Made by a program: the position numbers and the translations under genes | Source: Marinobacter sp. ELB17 | GTDB taxonomy: Bacteria; Pseudomonadota; Gammaproteobacteria; Pseudomonadales; Oleiphilaceae | DNA length: 64,000 nucleotides | NCBI RefSeq assembly: GCF_000169375.1 | Contig: NZ_AAXY01000002.1 | Location: 248,001 to 312,000, forward strand | Direction: 5' to 3' | Notes under the pieces: model-generated | What the model saw: the letters and a program-made list of their open reading frames with translations, nothing else | Databases searched by the model: none | Told to the model about the DNA's origin: nothing | In this document: positions 15,339-54,543 of the stretch, in pieces | How the letters are laid out: the number at the start of each line of letters is the position of its first letter | How positions within the stretch are numbered: position 1 is the stretch's first letter

Positions 15339-16700
15339 CTAGCGCACACCAGACCTGCGCAGCGCGGCCGGAGTGTAGTCACGGGACTGCCGTTGAATAC
15401 CGAACTCGTACGGGTTGGCTTCTTCGTTCGTCAGGCCCAACACCAGATAGCGGCCAGAAAGCACATCAGAGATGGTTTCAACGGCGTACCAGGGTACATC
15501 GCGATCGTAGAACTGAATGGCGTGGGCTTCTGACACCCTCCACAGCTCGCCGCGGCCGTCGTACTGGTCAATCACCGCTGCCTGCCAGGAATCTTCGTCA
15601 AAGTAGATGTCACGCCTGGCATAGATGTGGCGTTCGCCTTCCTTCAAAGTAGCGCGCACATGCCATACCCGGTGCAGTTCATAACGGGCCAGCTCCTGGT
15701 TGATATGGCCAGGCCGCACGATATCGGTGTACTTGAGGTCACGGTCGAGCAACTTGTAGGAATTGTACGGAATGTACATTTCTTTTTTGCCCACCAGCTC
15801 CCAGTTGTAGCGGTCTGGGGCGCCGTTCATCATGTCCAGGTTATCCGAGGTACGCATGCCGTCGGCCGCGGTGCCCGGGCCGTCGTACGCTACCTGAGGC
15901 GCACGGCGAACACGACGTTGGCCAGCGTTGTAAATCCACGCACGGCGGGGTTCGGCGATCTGGTCGATGGTTTCGTGCACCAGCAGCACGTTACCTGCTA
16001 GCCGAGCCGGCCCGACGATGGCCTGCTTAAAGTAAAACAGCACATTGGGATCGAGGTTCTGATTAGCGTCTTCCAGGAAGGTACGGTAGGTCAGCTCTTC
16101 CTGAAACCGCACTACGCTGAAATCGCCGCTTTCTGTGGGTGTTGCCTGGCCAATGTTACGCAGCACCGAGCCGCCGCGGTAACGGGTGATGTGGTTCCAG
16201 TAAACTTCCAAGCCACTTTGTGGCATCGGGAAAGGCGTGCCGGCCTGATAATTTTCCAGCCCAGAACCGCCTTCTTTCAATTTCACCGTGGTGGCATTGG
16301 CGCGGGTTTGCTCCTGCACGGCTTGCGGGTACGCCATTGTGCGTCGTGTTTGATACACCGGTATCACGAAGTTGTCGTACTTTTCGATCATCGCCACTTG
16401 GCCTGGTGACAGATTAGCGCGGTACTGATCTACGTTGCTACGATCGATGGTGAATTCTGGCGTATCTGACGGGAACGGATTCACGTAAATGCCATCGTTC
16501 TTGTAGCCAGCCGGCGGGGTGGTCAAGCCACCCTCAAAGGCTGGAATAGCACCGCCGTTGCCAGCTTGCTCTGCGCCCATCAGGGTCAGCGTATCGCCCA
16601 GCTTGGCGGCCTCGCTGCCTGACACCGCGGCAAAAGCGTTCATGCTGAACAGCGATGCCGCAAGAATCCCGGTGGTCAGTAATTTCTTGTTCAATTTCAT
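15339..16700 (-). CDS. DUF1329 exported protein
   Basis: 453-residue protein with a clean signal peptide (MKLNKKLLTTGILAASLF, cut near AFA-AV). The DUF1329 family is LolB-like in fold and is thought to be a periplasmic or outer-membrane-associated lipid carrier; its biochemical function is unproven. Start ATG 16700 has GAGGTG 6 bases upstream; a GTG three codons earlier (16709) is less likely. It follows the DUF1302 gene by 33 bases on the same strand, and the pair is commonly found together. Confidence 0.85.
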   Translation of the reverse strand: MKLNKKLLTTGILAASLFSMNAFAAVSGSEAAKLGDTLTLMGAEQAGNGGAIPAFEGGLTTPPAGYKNDGIYVNPFPSDTPEFTIDRSNVDQYRANLSPGQVAMIEKYDNFVIPVYQTRRTMAYPQAVQEQTRANATTVKLKEGGSGLENYQAGTPFPMPQSGLEVYWNHITRYRGGSVLRNIGQATPTESGDFSVVRFQEELTYRTFLEDANQNLDPNVLFYFKQAIVGPARLAGNVLLVHETIDQIAEPRRAWIYNAGQRRVRRAPQVAYDGPGTAADGMRTSDNLDMMNGAPDRYNWELVGKKEMYIPYNSYKLLDRDLKYTDIVRPGHINQELARYELHRVWHVRATLKEGERHIYARRDIYFDEDSWQAAVIDQYDGRGELWRVSEAHAIQFYDRDVPWYAVETISDVLSGRYLVLGLTNEEANPYEFGIQRQSRDYTPAALRRSGVR

Positions 16701-16733
16701 GGTTATCACCTCGCTAAACGAATAAGAGACGGA

Positions 16734-18605
16734 TTAGAACGAGTAGGAAACGCTCGCGCTGATGAAGTCGCGGTCTCTGAAGTCGTTATAGGGTTTGCCA
16801 CCGAAGTAGTTGGTGTAGCTGACATCAGCACTGAGCTTGTTCTGATACACCGCCTCTAAGCCAAAGCCAATAGACTTGTTGCCTTCGTTAAACGCGCCAC
16901 CGGGTTGCGGGGCGTAGCCTTTCACATCGTGACTCCAGGCCAGGCGCGGGAACAGGTTTACGCCGGAGAATGCGTTGAGGTAATCCCATACCAAGCGGGT
17001 GCGATAGCCCCAGGAGAAGTCTGTAGTGAAGCCTTCGTTTTCACAGTAGGCAGTGTTGGAGTTCAACGGTGTTCGCCCTATAAGGGCTGCATCCGAACCG
17101 CACAGGTCTAGCTGGCCAAAGGGTGTATCCACCAAGGTGGGACCGATACCGTAAGTGCCTGAGCGCCCGAAGCGGCCTTCGTCAAACCCTGGCAGGTCAT
17201 GGACCCAGTTGGCACCGGCTTCGCCAATCAGCGACAAGCGGTTGGCGCCCATGACCTGCTCAAAGAATTTAATCAAAGTAAATTGGGCCTGGGACACGTC
17301 GTAACGGTCGTTACCAGAAGCGACAAGCCCGTCGATCGAGCCACCAACCAACCCCAGTTCCTCGCGGCGACGCTGCTCTAGCAGGCTGGTTCCAGTTTGC
17401 AGACCAGCAGTGATTAGCTCAAAGGCGTTCCACTGTAGAGGCAAGTCTTTGCGGAAGCTGTACTCAGCGCCTAACGACCAGCCACCCGGTATGGTCGTGT
17501 TGATACTAATGCCAAACAGGTCAATATTTTCCGGATACTCAATAAAGTAATCAGGAAAATCAGGGAAGTTTGGTGACAACGGATTGCTACCACTGCCGCC
17601 GGGGCTGCTGTTGACCACGCCGCTGATATACGGCAAGCGGCTGTTGTACTTGATGTAATAAAGGCCAATTTCGGAATCGTTCAGGGCTGGCACAAACCAG
17701 CGCAATGCCACGCCAAACTGATCTTTAGTATCCGGCTCGCGATCCGCCAATCGGGGAATGACAACTCCGGCGCTGGCGAATTGTGCACTCTGGGCATCGC
17801 TGAGACTGCCAACCGGATTGATCGGCCCACAACCATCTGCCACAAAATCCACCGTGGAGAAAAAAGTACCACAGTCATCAATACGAGTTTTCTCCCAGTC
17901 GGTCTGAACAAAACCTTCAATAGTGACGTTTTCAGTAATACCCGCGGAAAGGTAGAACATTTCTACCGGTAGCAGAGCATCTTTCAATTCGGCACCTGGG
18001 GCACGGAAAGCGTTTACATCAATAGGGTTAATGGTGTTGATACCACCCGGGATAAAGGTGCTTTCACCCCAGCTGACCACCTGGTTACCGTAACGCGCGC
18101 TGATTGGCACATTGCCCAGGTACCAGTCAGTAAAAATATAGGCGTCTAGAATTTCACCGCCGGAGGCGTTGTCTCTGCCATCCGAGCTTAGTGGCACATG
18201 CTGACGGTTTTCGTCTTTCAGTTCAAAATCGTACCAGTAGCGGCCACGTACCAGCGCACCTACTCGGGTGAGCACACTGCTGTCGACATCGTAACTGAGG
18301 AACAGTTCGCTGTTGCCTTTGACAAGCTTGGAAACCGTATCGCCTTTATCGAAATTCAGGTTGCCGTCGTCGTAGTTGGTCGACGAAGCCGTACCGCCGT
18401 TGCCCTGCCCTACCAAACCCTTGTCACGGTTCTCGGTACGCCAGGTAGCACCTGCAGACAATGTGGTGTTGAACTGGGCTTCTACACCGCCCAATTTTTC
18501 GGAATCGAAGGAATAAGCTGAGGCATAACCGGAAAAGCCGGCCGCGATGGCAATCGCCAGCGGCAGTCGCTTCCAGATACGCGGCACGTGTTGGTTTTTT
18601 ATCAT
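16734..18605 (-). CDS. DUF1302 outer-membrane-type protein
   Basis: 623 residues with a signal peptide (hydrophobic LPLAIAIAAGFSGYASA) and a long body of alternating beta strands ending in an aromatic (VSYSF), as for an outer-membrane barrel. DUF1302 proteins usually pair with DUF1329 proteins, as here; a role in moving hydrophobic compounds across the envelope is inferred, not shown. ATG 18605 is chosen because the 101-codon extension to 18908 lacks coding character and would bury the signal peptide. About 180 bases of noncoding sequence upstream should hold the promoter. Confidence 0.85.
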   Translation of the reverse strand: MIKNQHVPRIWKRLPLAIAIAAGFSGYASAYSFDSEKLGGVEAQFNTTLSAGATWRTENRDKGLVGQGNGGTASSTNYDDGNLNFDKGDTVSKLVKGNSELFLSYDVDSSVLTRVGALVRGRYWYDFELKDENRQHVPLSSDGRDNASGGEILDAYIFTDWYLGNVPISARYGNQVVSWGESTFIPGGINTINPIDVNAFRAPGAELKDALLPVEMFYLSAGITENVTIEGFVQTDWEKTRIDDCGTFFSTVDFVADGCGPINPVGSLSDAQSAQFASAGVVIPRLADREPDTKDQFGVALRWFVPALNDSEIGLYYIKYNSRLPYISGVVNSSPGGSGSNPLSPNFPDFPDYFIEYPENIDLFGISINTTIPGGWSLGAEYSFRKDLPLQWNAFELITAGLQTGTSLLEQRRREELGLVGGSIDGLVASGNDRYDVSQAQFTLIKFFEQVMGANRLSLIGEAGANWVHDLPGFDEGRFGRSGTYGIGPTLVDTPFGQLDLCGSDAALIGRTPLNSNTAYCENEGFTTDFSWGYRTRLVWDYLNAFSGVNLFPRLAWSHDVKGYAPQPGGAFNEGNKSIGFGLEAVYQNKLSADVSYTNYFGGKPYNDFRDRDFISASVSYSF

Positions 18606-18783
18606 TGGAAGACTACTCCGTTTATTTTTGTGTTCTTGCTGTGATAGAACTGACAGGATCACACTATACCAACGCCCTCTCCTGTTCTTATCAGTCAAAA
18701 GTATGATTTTCACTCTCATTCCCACTGCATAAGCGTGGGCTTGCTTAATCCGACCATAGTCAACCCGCCCGCAATGGGCGACA

Positions 18784-19851
18784 TTATTGTTTTTGCAGTT
18801 CATCCCAGGGGTGAACCGGCAATACCGCTTCGCTGACTTCCGATTCCATGCTGTCGCGGAAATAGTCCATGGCTTTTTCTGCTTCGCCGAGTTCGTCGAA
18901 ACGGGCAATGTGATAAATCGCCTCGCCTTCGTTCACCAGTGGCAGGTTATTCACGCAAATCACAATGCCGGAACAGGGGGAGATGATGGCGGTTTCCGAG
19001 GCTCCGAAAGGGTCAGCAACCATCGCCAGCTTTTGGCCTTTGCTGATTTTTTGCCCCAGTTTGGCCACCGGGCGCATGATGCCATCTATATCGGCCCTTA
19101 CCCACTGGGAACTGGCTGCAACCTCGGAGCGTTTGCGAGGCGGCTTTACACTCTTTTTGGCCGGTGTCATTTTCAGCTCCCGCATTACCCGCATCACGCC
19201 TTTAACACCGCTGGCGATAACCACTTCGTCAAAGCGCAAGGCTTCGCCGCCCTCATAGGTAATCACTGGAATATTCTGTGAATCGGCGTAGGCGCGCAGG
19301 CTGCCCTCGCGCAGGCCGGCGTCTATAATAACCGGTGCAGCAAAAGCTTCCGCCATACGGGCGGTTTCAGGGGTTTTCAGCTCGGCACGAATCTGCGGCA
19401 GGTTAAATCGATGTATGGCGCCGGTGTGCAGGTCAATAATGTGGGTAACGTGTTCCATGATCTGGGTGCGCAATAAGTACGCGATGCGCCCACCCAAAGA
19501 GCCGCTTTCGCTGCCGGGAAAACAGCGGTTCAAATCACGGCGATCTGGCAGGTAGCGGGTGCGCTGCACAAAGCCGAAGATATTGACAATGGGCACAGCG
19601 ACCAAGGTGCCACGCAAATTACGCAGAGCGGTGTTGGTGAGTACCCGGCGCACAATTTCCACGCCGTTGATTTCATCGCCGTGAATAGCGCCACACACCA
19701 TCAGCACCGGGCCGTCACGGCGGCCGTGCACAATTTCCACCGGAATGTGCAGCGGAGTGTGGGTGTACAGTTTGGCCACTTGAACTTCTATGGTTTTACG
19801 GGTGCCCGGCTGAACCTGAATGCCGGCAATTTCAAACGGAGCTCGTGCCAT
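18784..19851 (-). CDS. Succinylglutamate desuccinylase/aspartoacylase-family (M14-type) hydrolase
   Basis: 355-residue zinc hydrolase of the AstE/ASPA branch of the M14 fold. First metal-binding motif is HGDEINGVEIVRR and the third ligand is probably in IIDLHTGAIHRFN. The C-terminal part (ADIDGIMRPVAKLGQKISKGQKL) resembles a biotinyl-lipoyl-like barrel often appended in this branch. The substrate is unknown. It starts 3 bases after rimK ends, in an operon with rimK, a retropepsin-like protease and an MscS channel. This context suggests action on glutamyl or acyl-glutamyl products rather than arginine catabolism, because no ast genes are nearby. Confidence 0.82.
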   Translation of the reverse strand: MARAPFEIAGIQVQPGTRKTIEVQVAKLYTHTPLHIPVEIVHGRRDGPVLMVCGAIHGDEINGVEIVRRVLTNTALRNLRGTLVAVPIVNIFGFVQRTRYLPDRRDLNRCFPGSESGSLGGRIAYLLRTQIMEHVTHIIDLHTGAIHRFNLPQIRAELKTPETARMAEAFAAPVIIDAGLREGSLRAYADSQNIPVITYEGGEALRFDEVVIASGVKGVMRVMRELKMTPAKKSVKPPRKRSEVAASSQWVRADIDGIMRPVAKLGQKISKGQKLAMVADPFGASETAIISPCSGIVICVNNLPLVNEGEAIYHIARFDELGEAEKAMDYFRDSMESEVSEAVLPVHPWDELQKQ

Positions 19852-19854
19852 TGG

Positions 19855-20763
19855 TTATCCTCTGCCTCGGGTTTTTGTGCGGCTGGGGGCCTGATTTTTT
19901 TCAATCCAGCTCATGATCAAACCGGCGACGTTTTTGCCTGTGGCGTTTTCAATGCCCTCAAGCCCTGGCGAGGAGTTTACTTCCATCACCAGCGGCCCGC
20001 GGGACGAGCGCAGCAGGTCTACACCGGCCACGTTCAGGCCCATGGCCTTGGCCGCGGTAATGGCGGTGCGGCGTTCTTCCGGCGTAATCCGAATCAGCGA
20101 GGCGGTGCCGCCGCGGTGTAAATTGGAGCGGAATTCACCGTCAGCACCCTGGCGCTTCATGGCGGCGATAACTTTGTCGCCTATTACAAAACAGCGAATG
20201 TCGGCGCCGCCGGCTTCCTTGATGAATTCCTGCACCAGTATGTCAGCTTTCAGGCCCATAAAGGCTTCAATGACGCTTTCCGCAGCGGTGCGTGTTTCCG
20301 CCAGCACCACGCCAATACCCTGAGTACCTTGCAGCAATTTGATAACCACCGGGGCGCCGCCCACCATTTTCAGCAGATCAGGAACGCTATCGGGCTTGTT
20401 GGCGAAACCGGTGACTGGCATGCCAACGCCTTTGCGGGCTAACAGCTGCAGCGAGCGCAGTTTGTCGCGGGAGCGGGTAATGGCGACCGATTCGTTAACC
20501 GGAAACGTGCCCATCATTTCAAACTGACGCAATACCGCAGTGCCGTAGAAAGTGACTGACGCACCGATACGCGGAATAACCACGTCAAAATCTTCCAGCA
20601 CTTGCTGGTGATAATGAATCGCAGGATTTGCCGAGGTAATGTTCATGGAGCAGTGCAGGCAGTCAATTACCCGCACCTCGTGGCCGCGGTTGACTCCTTC
20701 CTCCACCAGCCGGCGGGTGGAATACAATTTGCGGTTACGGGACAGCACGGCAATTTTCATCAT
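19855..20763 (-). CDS. rimK: Ribosomal protein S6--L-glutamate ligase RimK
   Basis: ATP-grasp ligase, 302 residues, closely matching E. coli RimK along its length ([55 protein letters not shown]). It adds glutamates to the C-terminus of S6 and can make poly-glutamate. The metal- and ATP-binding residues of the ATP-grasp fold (E-V-N near the end) are present. Start may be ATG 20763 or the adjacent ATG 20760; the first overlaps the protease stop as ATGA, so translation is coupled. An S6 gene with a suitable Glu-rich tail is at 54127-54543. Confidence 0.95.
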
Positions 20764-21245
20764 TCGTTCCTCAACGCCGGTTGCCCGGCCAGATAAGATG
20801 CTTCCGGGAAAACAGTGGCCCGGCCGGCCATAGCGGTACGGCCAATCAACATACGAAAACGCATGGAGTCCCGGTTGGTCAGTGTCATTTCTATGGGCCA
20901 GCTTTGGTCGCCCACCACTAGGGTGGTTTCAACCACCAGCCGCAATTCTTTGTGGCCGCCGGAGTCGGACACGTTGCGTTCATCCAGCACCCGCGCGTCG
21001 CACTCAATCACCTCTTGCAGGTCATTCTGTGTCGGGTGCACCCAGAACTTTACCCGGCGCTCGCCGTTTTCAGTGTAGGGCTCGGTGCGAAAGGTATGCA
21101 GGCACGATGTGCGCGCACCGGTGTCTACCTTGGATTTAATCAGGCCAATGCCCAGATCGGGCAGAGCCACCCATTCGCGCCAACCCAGGCGCACTGCTGT
21201 AGAGCCTTTAGCTGGTGTTAAGCCGTCAGCTGTCTTTGTGGACAT
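20760..21245 (-). CDS. Retropepsin-like 'ATP-dependent zinc protease' (RimB-type)
   Basis: 161-residue protein of the family annotated as putative ATP-dependent zinc protease, whose fold is retropepsin-like. The active-site-like motif DTGARTS follows GLIKSKV, and MLIGRTAM near the C-terminus is the second family signature. In Pseudomonas a homologue called RimB works with RimK, and the adjacent rimK here supports a similar pairing. The start overlaps the MscS gene end by 20 bases. Confidence 0.85.
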
Positions 21246-22113
21246 CTGGCTGTTCCTTGTCTGGCAAATTTTGCGGCGCCATCAGCTGCACACGGAAAGG
21301 TTCTGAATGGCTACCGGCGTAGATGCTGGTGTGGGGGAACGGGATTTCAATTTTTTCCCGGTCGAGCATTTTTTTAACCGCAATCATCATGCTGCTGCGA
21401 CTGGCTTCCAGTTTTTCTCTGGGCACCCAGAATGAAAACTGCACGTCTACCGACGACTGGCCAAACCCGGTCACCAACACGAATGGGTTCGGCTCCTTCA
21501 GGCAGGTTGGGTGCTTTTCCGCCAGCGCCAACAGCAGTTTTTCTACCCGTTCTACGTCTTCAGCGTAAGCAATGCCGACCGTCAGGTCGAGCCGTCGAAT
21601 GGGAAAGCGGAAACGGTTAACCACCTTGGTTTTGATCAGGGTTTCATTGGGAATGCGCACATACAGGTTGTCTGGCGTGCGCAGTTTTACACTCAGCATG
21701 TCAATACTGACCACCTCGCCAATGGTGGCGTCGGCTTCGATTACGTCGCCAATTTCAAACGGCTTTTCAACCAGCAGAAACAATCCGCTGATCATGTTAG
21801 AGGCCGATGTTTGCGAGGCAAAACCGATGGCTACGGTTAAAATACCGGCTGCGCCCAGCACCACATCCAGCGAAAAGCCCGCCTCACGCAGGGCGGCCAC
21901 CGCAAAAATCACGACAATTACATAAAACACCAGGCGCTTCAGCATTACCGTGTGATGGCGCGAGGCACGTTTGGCCATAAATCGGCTGACACTGCGGGCT
22001 GCAAACGTAGCCAATAACAGGCCTAAGCCAAACAGGAACAGCGAACTGAACCACTGACCCCAGGCAATGCCATCAATCACGCTGGCAGCCATGTGTTTTA
22101 GTTGGTCCAACAC
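21226..22113 (-). CDS. MscS-family mechanosensitive ion channel
   Basis: About 295 residues with three hydrophobic segments, the last being the MscS pore helix region (AAGILTVAIGFASQTSASNM, then ISGLFLLVEKPFEIGD), and a cytoplasmic beta domain (VRIPNETLI). It releases solutes on osmotic downshock. Start is uncertain: GTG 22113 has GGGAG 10 bases upstream, while ATG 22092 and TTG 22140 are alternatives. The end overlaps the protease gene, so it belongs to the rimK operon. Confidence 0.88.
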   Translation of the reverse strand: MLDQLKHMAASVIDGIAWGQWFSSLFLFGLGLLLATFAARSVSRFMAKRASRHHTVMLKRLVFYVIVVIFAVAALREAGFSLDVVLGAAGILTVAIGFASQTSASNMISGLFLLVEKPFEIGDVIEADATIGEVVSIDMLSVKLRTPDNLYVRIPNETLIKTKVVNRFRFPIRRLDLTVGIAYAEDVERVEKLLLALAEKHPTCLKEPNPFVLVTGFGQSSVDVQFSFWVPREKLEASRSSMMIAVKKMLDREKIEIPFPHTSIYAGSHSEPFRVQLMAPQNLPDKEQPDVHKDS

Positions 22114-22140
22114 AGTACGTTTACTCCCGGCTTGTACCAA

Positions 22141-22236
22141 TCAAATAGAAGGCCACTCGAACAGAAGCTCAATCGAATAGAAGGCCACGCAAACACAAGG
22201 TCAATCAAATGGGAGATCAGCCAAATAGAAGGTCAA
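22141..22236. repeat. Degenerate repeats between the MscS gene and the upstream gene
   Basis: Three related 16-bp units, TCAAATAGAAGGCCAC (22141-22156), TCGAATAGAAGGCCAC (22173-22188) and CCAAATAGAAGGTCAA (22221-22236), with weaker partial copies between them. The last one spans the end of the upstream minus-strand gene. Confidence 0.7.
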
Positions 22237-54126: not shown

Positions 54127-54543
54127 TTACTCTTCTTCGTCTGTGTCGTCAACTTTCTGGCTTTCGTCAGATTCGGCTGAACGGCGCGGACGATCATCTC
54201 CACTTGGGCGGCGGTCTTCGCGAGACTCTGCAGATTTCATCGGAGACATATCGGTAACAGCTTCATCACGACGCAGGATCAGCTCACGGATGATGGCATC
54301 GTTGAAGCGGAAGTTATGTGTCAGCTCGTCCATCGCGGTCTGCGAACATTGAATGTTCATCAGCACGTAATGAGCTTTGTGAATCTTGTTGATCGGGTAT
54401 GCCAGGTGACGACGGCCCCAATCTTCCAAGCGATCTACCTGGCCACCATCTTCAGTGATGAGGCTGGTATAACGCTCGATCATAGCGGGCACTTGCTCGC
54501 TTTGATCCGGGTGTACCATAAATACAACTTCGTAGTGACGCAT
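54127..54543 (-). CDS. rpsF: 30S ribosomal protein S6 with Glu-rich tail
   Basis: 138 residues. S6 core ([38 protein letters not shown]) followed by a charged, disordered extension ending DDTDEEE. Such a C-terminus is what RimK extends with glutamate in E. coli, and rimK is present in this window. First gene of the rpsF-rpsR-rplI-dnaB-alr operon. The 260-base upstream region holds the promoter and probably an S6:S18 autoregulatory leader, which I could not resolve. Confidence 0.97.

Follow-up and report, generated by a model that had tools for sequence, protein, structure and literature searches.

The Rim system of Pseudomonas is RimABK (PMC11957791, PMC4741518), and rimK there always shares its operon with one or more further genes (PMC10092738). 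RimK makes free poly-glutamate in these bacteria, and the retropepsin RimB cuts poly-glutamate from RpsF and stimulates RimK (PMC11957791). In the Rlo system of P. aeruginosa, the RloA proteases, which are related to RimB and have signal peptides, are encoded with RloB and RloC and are needed under hypo-osmotic stress (PMC12239564). Another polymer, cyanophycin, is handled by CphA, CphB and CphZ, the last being a dipeptide hydrolase that acts after cyanophycinase (PMC12661447 and Protein Data Bank titles). Here we analyse a four-gene operon in a 64,000-nucleotide stretch of Marinobacter sp. ELB17 (NZ_AAXY01000002.1, positions 248,001 to 312,000; 'the window'), in which RimK and a RimB-like retropepsin are encoded with an aspartoacylase-like zinc hydrolase, T1, and a mechanosensitive channel. 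The hydrolase gene is a conserved partner of rimK, and we tentatively propose that T1 hydrolyses short glutamyl peptides.

A first-pass annotation of the window had described four coupled minus-strand genes, and the open reading frames together with domain searches recovered all four with that coupling. They are transcribed in the order mscS, rimB, rimK, T1: mscS and rimB overlap by 20 nt, rimB and rimK overlap in an ATGA, and 3 nt separate rimK from the hydrolase gene. The operon has in common with the Pseudomonas Rim system a RimK ligase and an adjacent, overlapping RimB retropepsin; it differs in adding the zinc hydrolase 3' of rimK and MscS 5' of rimB. A Pseudomonas-like genome whose RimK is near-identical to Protein Data Bank entry 7qyr (G094) has rimB-rimK and no match to either clade of the hydrolase described below, and two genomes of the same family (G020 and G061) likewise have no match to T1 or T2. 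In a Pseudomonas-like genome, rimB-rimK is followed by a gene (L204:4147-5076) with similarity to muramoyltetrapeptide carboxypeptidase (111.5 bits against a cut-off of 378, which it does not reach), so that a different peptidase may occupy this position.

Linkage of T1 to rimK

We surveyed 274 Gammaproteobacteria genomes (the class sample), 115 genomes of the order (the order sample) and 80 named loci, and counted genes as beside one another when they shared a strand and were no more than 2.5 kb apart. T1 was parted by eye from a sister clade, T2, on identity, score and frame length (in the order sample, at least 45% identity for T1 and 34-41% for T2), and weaker paralogs were set aside; the T1 rows include a fragment of 30 residues at 60% (G012), and the second piece of a broken gene in G155 was left out.

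Of the 91 T1 loci in the class sample, 75 had rimK beside the hydrolase gene, with a model-match spacing of 23-61 nt in 70 of the 75, and rimK was present in 82 of the 86 genomes with T1 compared with 37 of the 188 without it. The linkage is far beyond chance, although Fisher and Poisson values overstate its significance because the genomes are related. These counts bear out the first-pass annotation in placing the hydrolase with the RimK system, and the gene neighbourhood that it had singled out for comparison across Gammaproteobacteria is conserved. T1 was found in 55 of the 115 genomes of the order sample and lay beside rimK, on the same strand, in 46 of the 55; 54 have a RimK row, a count that includes weak or partial rows (down to 122 bits, in G059). 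RimB was present in 55 of 60 linked class loci fetched for close analysis (out of the 75), either 5' or 3' of T1, such that gene content is kept while order varies. Among the named loci, RimK and RimB were encoded on the same strand as T1 in 49 and 44, respectively, and triplets occur in Vibrio, Pseudoalteromonas, Thioalkalivibrio, Hydrogenovibrio and Mariprofundus, as well as in metagenome-assembled genomes (MAGs) named Nitrospirota/Nitrospirales, Kiloniellaceae and Desulfobacterales.

Some individual loci have features of their own. In one genome (G334:C22:25167-26531), RimB and RimK match within a single 511-aa open frame, which is the RimBK hybrid type described in PMC11957791. A Marinobacter MAG (L082:3035-4092) has about 1 kb between the rimB match and rimK, unlike the other ten loci of that lineage. 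One genome that has no RimK match carries a hydrolase gene with in-frame stops (G155:C13:28630-29624), a single case that is as expected if the gene decays once RimK is lost. Six Vibrio-type loci (L130, L131, L132, L133, L137 and L139) have a PepD-type dipeptidase gene near the hydrolase gene; the one copy checked (L131:1896-3368) scored 604 bits against a beta-Ala-His dipeptidase cut-off of 343.75.

In the window itself (Table 1), RimK passes the S6-glutamate ligase equivalog model, and its best solved-structure match is 7qyr, which we take to be a Pseudomonas protein. The nearest named loci by hydrolase are those of Marinobacter. The protease has RimB as its best NCBIfam model but scores below that model's cut-off, and on this basis we call it RimB-like and do not file it under the curated RimB family; D41 and G43 of its D41-T-G43 motif are kept at ≥98% across 55 RimB loci. 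Where the first-pass annotation had spoken of a RimB-type partner as something separate from the retropepsin, the retropepsin is itself RimB-like. The start of mscS is uncertain (TTG 22140, TTG 22113 or ATG 22092).

Table 1. Operon genes and the candidate RimK acceptor, by position in the window
Feature	Position	Strand	Basis and remarks
MscS-type mechanosensitive channel	21226..22140	-	Pfam MS_channel 1st, 2nd and 3rd domains; first gene of the operon
RimB-like retropepsin-type protease	20760..21245	-	Zn_protease PF05618 (119.4 bits, cut-off 27); RimB NF052261 (119.9 bits, cut-off 200); DTG motif at residue 41
RimK, S6/poly-glutamate ligase (ATP-grasp)	19855..20763	-	PF08443 (231.2 bits); NF007764 (465.6 bits, cut-off 331)
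T1, RimK-partner aspartoacylase-like zinc hydrolase	18784..19851	-	AstE_AspA_cat PF24827 (136.4 bits, cut-off 25); predicted M14-like fold and C-terminal barrel domain
rpsF (ribosomal protein S6), candidate RimK acceptor	54127..54543	-	PF01250 at C74:302271-302537

Just 5' of mscS lies a tandem array (22138-22236) of a 16-bp unit in 6.2 copies with 66% matches, which can also be read as 2.3 copies of 32 bp. A promoter scan found no sigma-70-like site and is uninformative either way. Genes encoding DUF1302 and DUF1329 proteins follow 3' of the operon on the same strand (15339-18800); beside the hydrolase gene in the named loci these families had no matches except one stray DUF1329 (L141).

A sister clade that accompanies the Rlo system

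The Marinobacter genome encodes a second homologue (L034:4251-5636), which is longer and has a hydrophobic N-terminal segment. This sister form, T2, was found in 36 of the 115 genomes of the order. All 36 have RloB (PF14402), compared with 30 of the 79 genomes without T2, one RloB genome below the cut-off (G052) having been dropped from the count. T2 lies within 2.4 kb of rloB in 4 of the 36 (G016, G091, G095 and G099, from three families); in four further genomes the two genes share a contig at a distance of at least 32 kb, and in the window's own genome T2 and the rlo genes are on separate contigs. The Pfam-confirmed order at one of the linked loci (L160) is rloA, rloB, rloC, T2, with a 4-nt overlap between rloC and T2. 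T2 is also directly 3' of rloC in L158, precedes rloA in L159 and is separated from rloC by one gene in L161, and RloC in L160 and L158 passes the NCBIfam alpha-L-glutamate-ligase-like model (436.9 and 439 bits, respectively, against 314.2). The rlo-locus T2 of G091 (L158:4598-6013) is split over two open frames and is thus broken in that assembly.

The T1-RimK and T2-RloB associations exceed those of the crossed pairs, and they still do so after stratification, among genomes that lack RimK and among those that lack RloB. In a tree of 52 sequences, T2 formed one group (99/98) and T1 another (84/89), and the two clustered to the exclusion of six further paralogs; the long branches of the latter, with the midpoint root, weaken the deeper order. 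One hydrolase family therefore accompanies a retropepsin and an ATP-grasp ligase twice, in Rim and in Rlo. T2 proteins mostly have hydrophobic N-termini and may be a secreted form, as predicted from a crude hydropathy measure that exceeded 2.0 in 20 of 21 T2 sequences and ran from 1.0 to 2.1 in T1, with slight overlap.

The Rlo system of P. aeruginosa has a retropepsin and an ATP-grasp protein in common with the Marinobacter operon, and the sister hydrolase occurs in the rlo locus of some relatives; it differs in that its proteases are predicted to be secreted and in having an inactive transglutaminase in the membrane (PMC12239564). The main text of that paper names no desuccinylase, aspartoacylase, carboxypeptidase or M14 protein, and the main text of PMC11957791 no desuccinylase, aspartoacylase or carboxypeptidase. 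The literature searched contained no link of RimK to succinylglutamate desuccinylase or AstE, an earlier mention being possible; judged by title, papers naming RimK with aspartoacylase included none on a bacterial rim operon, and those naming RimK with CorA none on a genomic link of the two. A 2009 survey of amidoligases reportedly treated RimK neighbourhoods.

Candidate activities of the hydrolase

An AlphaFold2 model of T1 (25-sequence alignment; predicted local distance difference test score 87.8, predicted template modelling score 0.87) best matched two solved structures, 3cdx (Z 35.0) and the N-acetyl-diaminobutyrate deacetylase DoeB/EutE (Z 34.5), the C-terminal barrel included. The cyanophycin dipeptide hydrolase CphZ came below DoeB (Z 28.3 over 298 residues, 2.8 Å), and AstE (Z 19.3), the tubulin deglutamylase CCP5 (Z 17.7 over 220 residues) and aspartoacylase (Z 17.6) scored lower. 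T1 is 20-21% identical to DoeB, 15% to CphZ and 12-13% to CCP5, where the alignment is limited to the M14-like catalytic domain; the catalytic fold is similar, and any deglutamylation by T1 is putative. As identities for T1, DoeB (TIGR02994, 69.7 bits against a cut-off of 402.7) and aspartoacylase (NF002601, 31.8 against 180) were both rejected.

Residues H57, E60, H142 and E200, which we take to be the zinc ligands and catalytic glutamate of the family, are kept at ≥98% across 60 loci, and the zinc site is intact. Eleven arginines are kept at the same level (residues 68, 69, 99, 105, 109, 122, 148, 155, 186, 206 and 252), an abundance that would fit an acidic substrate; nine of these (all except 69 and 206) are also invariant in nine T2 sequences. 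In alignments inspected by eye, R68, R148, N150, R155 and R186 of the T1 family align with different residues in 3cdx and DoeB.

Our best guess at the putative activity of T1 is hydrolysis of short glutamyl peptides; the operon would then be a Rim module for poly-glutamate in which a third enzyme takes part. As has been shown in Pseudomonas, RimK would add alpha-linked glutamates to a protein C-terminus and also make free poly-glutamate, and RimB would cut the glutamate chains and stimulate RimK. T1 may then bind the free carboxylates of short glutamyl peptides through its conserved arginines, whose position in the pocket we infer, and split the short peptides derived from RimK and RimB to glutamate, such that the pool would be recycled; the secreted sister would do likewise for the Rlo system. 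This is the most economical reading because of its parallel with the cyanophycin cycle, in which an ATP-grasp polymer synthetase, a cleaving enzyme and an aspartoacylase-fold dipeptide hydrolase act in turn, although the polymer is another one and the cleaving enzyme is unrelated. It also draws on the linkage of T1 to rimK, the specificity of the T1-RimK and T2-RloB pairs, the CphZ-like fold, the kept zinc-site residues and arginines, the free poly-glutamate and RimB cleavage documented in PMC11957791 and the dipeptidase gene of the Vibrio-type loci. Our confidence in it, lowered slightly by weighing the RimB comparison, falls a little short of even.

Several observations weigh against this reading. 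RimB is about as common without T1 (29 of the 37 RimK-only class genomes) as with it (76 of 86), which ties T1 to RimK; a special T1-RimB tie was rejected. T1 is also dispensable, as 37 of the 119 RimK genomes of the class and the Pseudomonas-like G094, with its rimB-rimK pair, are without it. Conversely, 4 of the 86 T1 genomes of the class (two low-scoring, one broken and one intact) lack a RimK match, as does G071 of the order sample, and no RimK lies in the examined flanks of 29 of the 80 named loci (19 Halomonadaceae and 10 others, some of them short contigs). Finally, the T1 model matches 3cdx and the DoeB deacetylase best (Z 34-35), ahead of CphZ, and an N-acyl amino acid substrate for T1 therefore retains some probability.

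In the alternative that survives best, T1 would be a deacylase of N-acyl-glutamate or N-acyl-aspartate and would either provide or use up a small substrate of RimK. N-acetylaspartate is common to aspartoacylase and the mammalian RimK homologues, there is literature naming RimK with aspartoacylase (mostly mammalian, by title), and the closest structures are DoeB and proteins annotated as desuccinylase or aspartoacylase. We regard this role as rather unlikely, however, because T1 fails the curated DoeB and aspartoacylase models, because no acyltransferase was noticed among the recurrent neighbours, most clusters of which are unannotated, and because it leaves unexplained the presence of the same family with the Rlo retropepsin and ligase.

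A weaker case can be made for T1 as a carboxypeptidase-type deglutamylase that would trim the S6 tail one terminal Glu at a time and complement RimB, as CCP enzymes do on tubulin. The strain's own S6, encoded in the window, ends in VDDTDEEE, placing a candidate Glu-ending acceptor in the same genome as RimK, and the M14-like fold shared with CCP5 and the tight linkage of T1 to rimK both suit such a role. Across genomes, however, Glu-ending S6 is not discriminating: it was found in 11 of 20 genomes that have both RimK and T1, 9 of 16 that have RimK alone and 10 of 20 that lack both, all hand-picked from the best-scoring rows among the matches listed, and S6-tail covariation was rejected as evidence for S6 as a T1 substrate. 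The C-terminal barrel is common to small-substrate enzymes, RimB already takes off the tail, and T2 tracks Rlo, the proteases of which are predicted to act outside the cytoplasm (PMC12239564), all of which make direct trimming improbable. The first-pass annotation, which had proposed an add-and-trim system for glutamylation, was partly right: genes for adding and for removing glutamate do sit next to each other, but the trimmer is the retropepsin RimB (PMC11957791), and trimming of S6 by the M14-fold protein is unsupported because the S6 tail shows no covariation with that protein, whose sister form accompanies a system with predicted secreted proteases. Very improbable is a triplet that merely reflects inherited ancestral gene order with no joint function: vertical inheritance inflates the counts and the 19 Halomonadaceae loci keep T1 apart from rimK, but the narrow spacing, the change of internal order with content kept, the co-occurrence of T1 and RimK even when unlinked and the parallel arrangement at rlo all argue against it.

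Ion transport genes around the locus

The first-pass annotation had taken the channel gene as a hint of a link to osmotic state or glutamate pools. For the Marinobacter operon this hint is weak: mscS is directly 5' of rimB in the 11 Marinobacter/Halovibrio loci among the 80 named and lies anywhere in the examined flanks of 5 of the 69 others, and MscS was rejected as a general operon member in favour of a trait of the Marinobacter lineage. The remark gains indirect support because CorA and MscS are over-represented around T1 loci across the class. In 60 class genomes, 11 CorA-family genes lay within 2 kb of T1, compared with 0.14 expected by random placement, and 18, in 15 families, within 10 kb (0.50 expected); for MscS, the count within 5 kb was 7 (0.92 expected). 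CorA rows include fragments, nearby MscS genes were found by tblastn with three channel queries and the MscS copy number was taken from the family model; the P values are inflated by relatedness, and many families that had each kept an ancestral linkage would give the same picture.

De novo clustering of neighbours at 70 named loci likewise placed CorA-family genes near T1 in 12 (five of them Pseudoalteromonas) and MgtE-type genes in 6. One representative of each was confirmed with Pfam; that of CorA fell below the NCBIfam CorA cut-off (153.6 against 200.75) and is called CorA-family with no metal assigned. The CorA over-representation is drawn from class loci L243-L302 and named loci L110-L152. 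CorA is also close to two rimK genes that have no adjacent hydrolase (G326 C126 and G368 C2).

A broader picture, which we offer as speculation and think doubtful, is that many Proteobacteria run poly-glutamate economies in two compartments, with a tie to ion balance. A cytoplasmic unit of RimK, RimB and the hydrolase and an envelope unit of RloA, RloB, RloC and the secreted hydrolase would each make glutamate chains, cut them and digest them. The first of these units would be genomically wired to CorA-family and MgtE cation transporters and to MscS because the polymer would serve as a dischargeable counter-ion and osmolyte, and not only as a ribosome mark.

Most work on RimK and RimB has been done in Pseudomonas, and the third gene is missing from the three Pseudomonas-like genomes sampled here, one of which was checked by its RimK. 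Beside the known pair of enzymes that add and cut glutamate stands a third, conserved and apparently undescribed, and its linkage to CorA and MscS offers a physiological handle through divalent ions and osmotic shock. If T1 does digest glutamate oligomers, the fate of poly-alpha-glutamate would become directly testable, and Rim and Rlo would be two versions of one cycle of synthesis, cutting and digestion.

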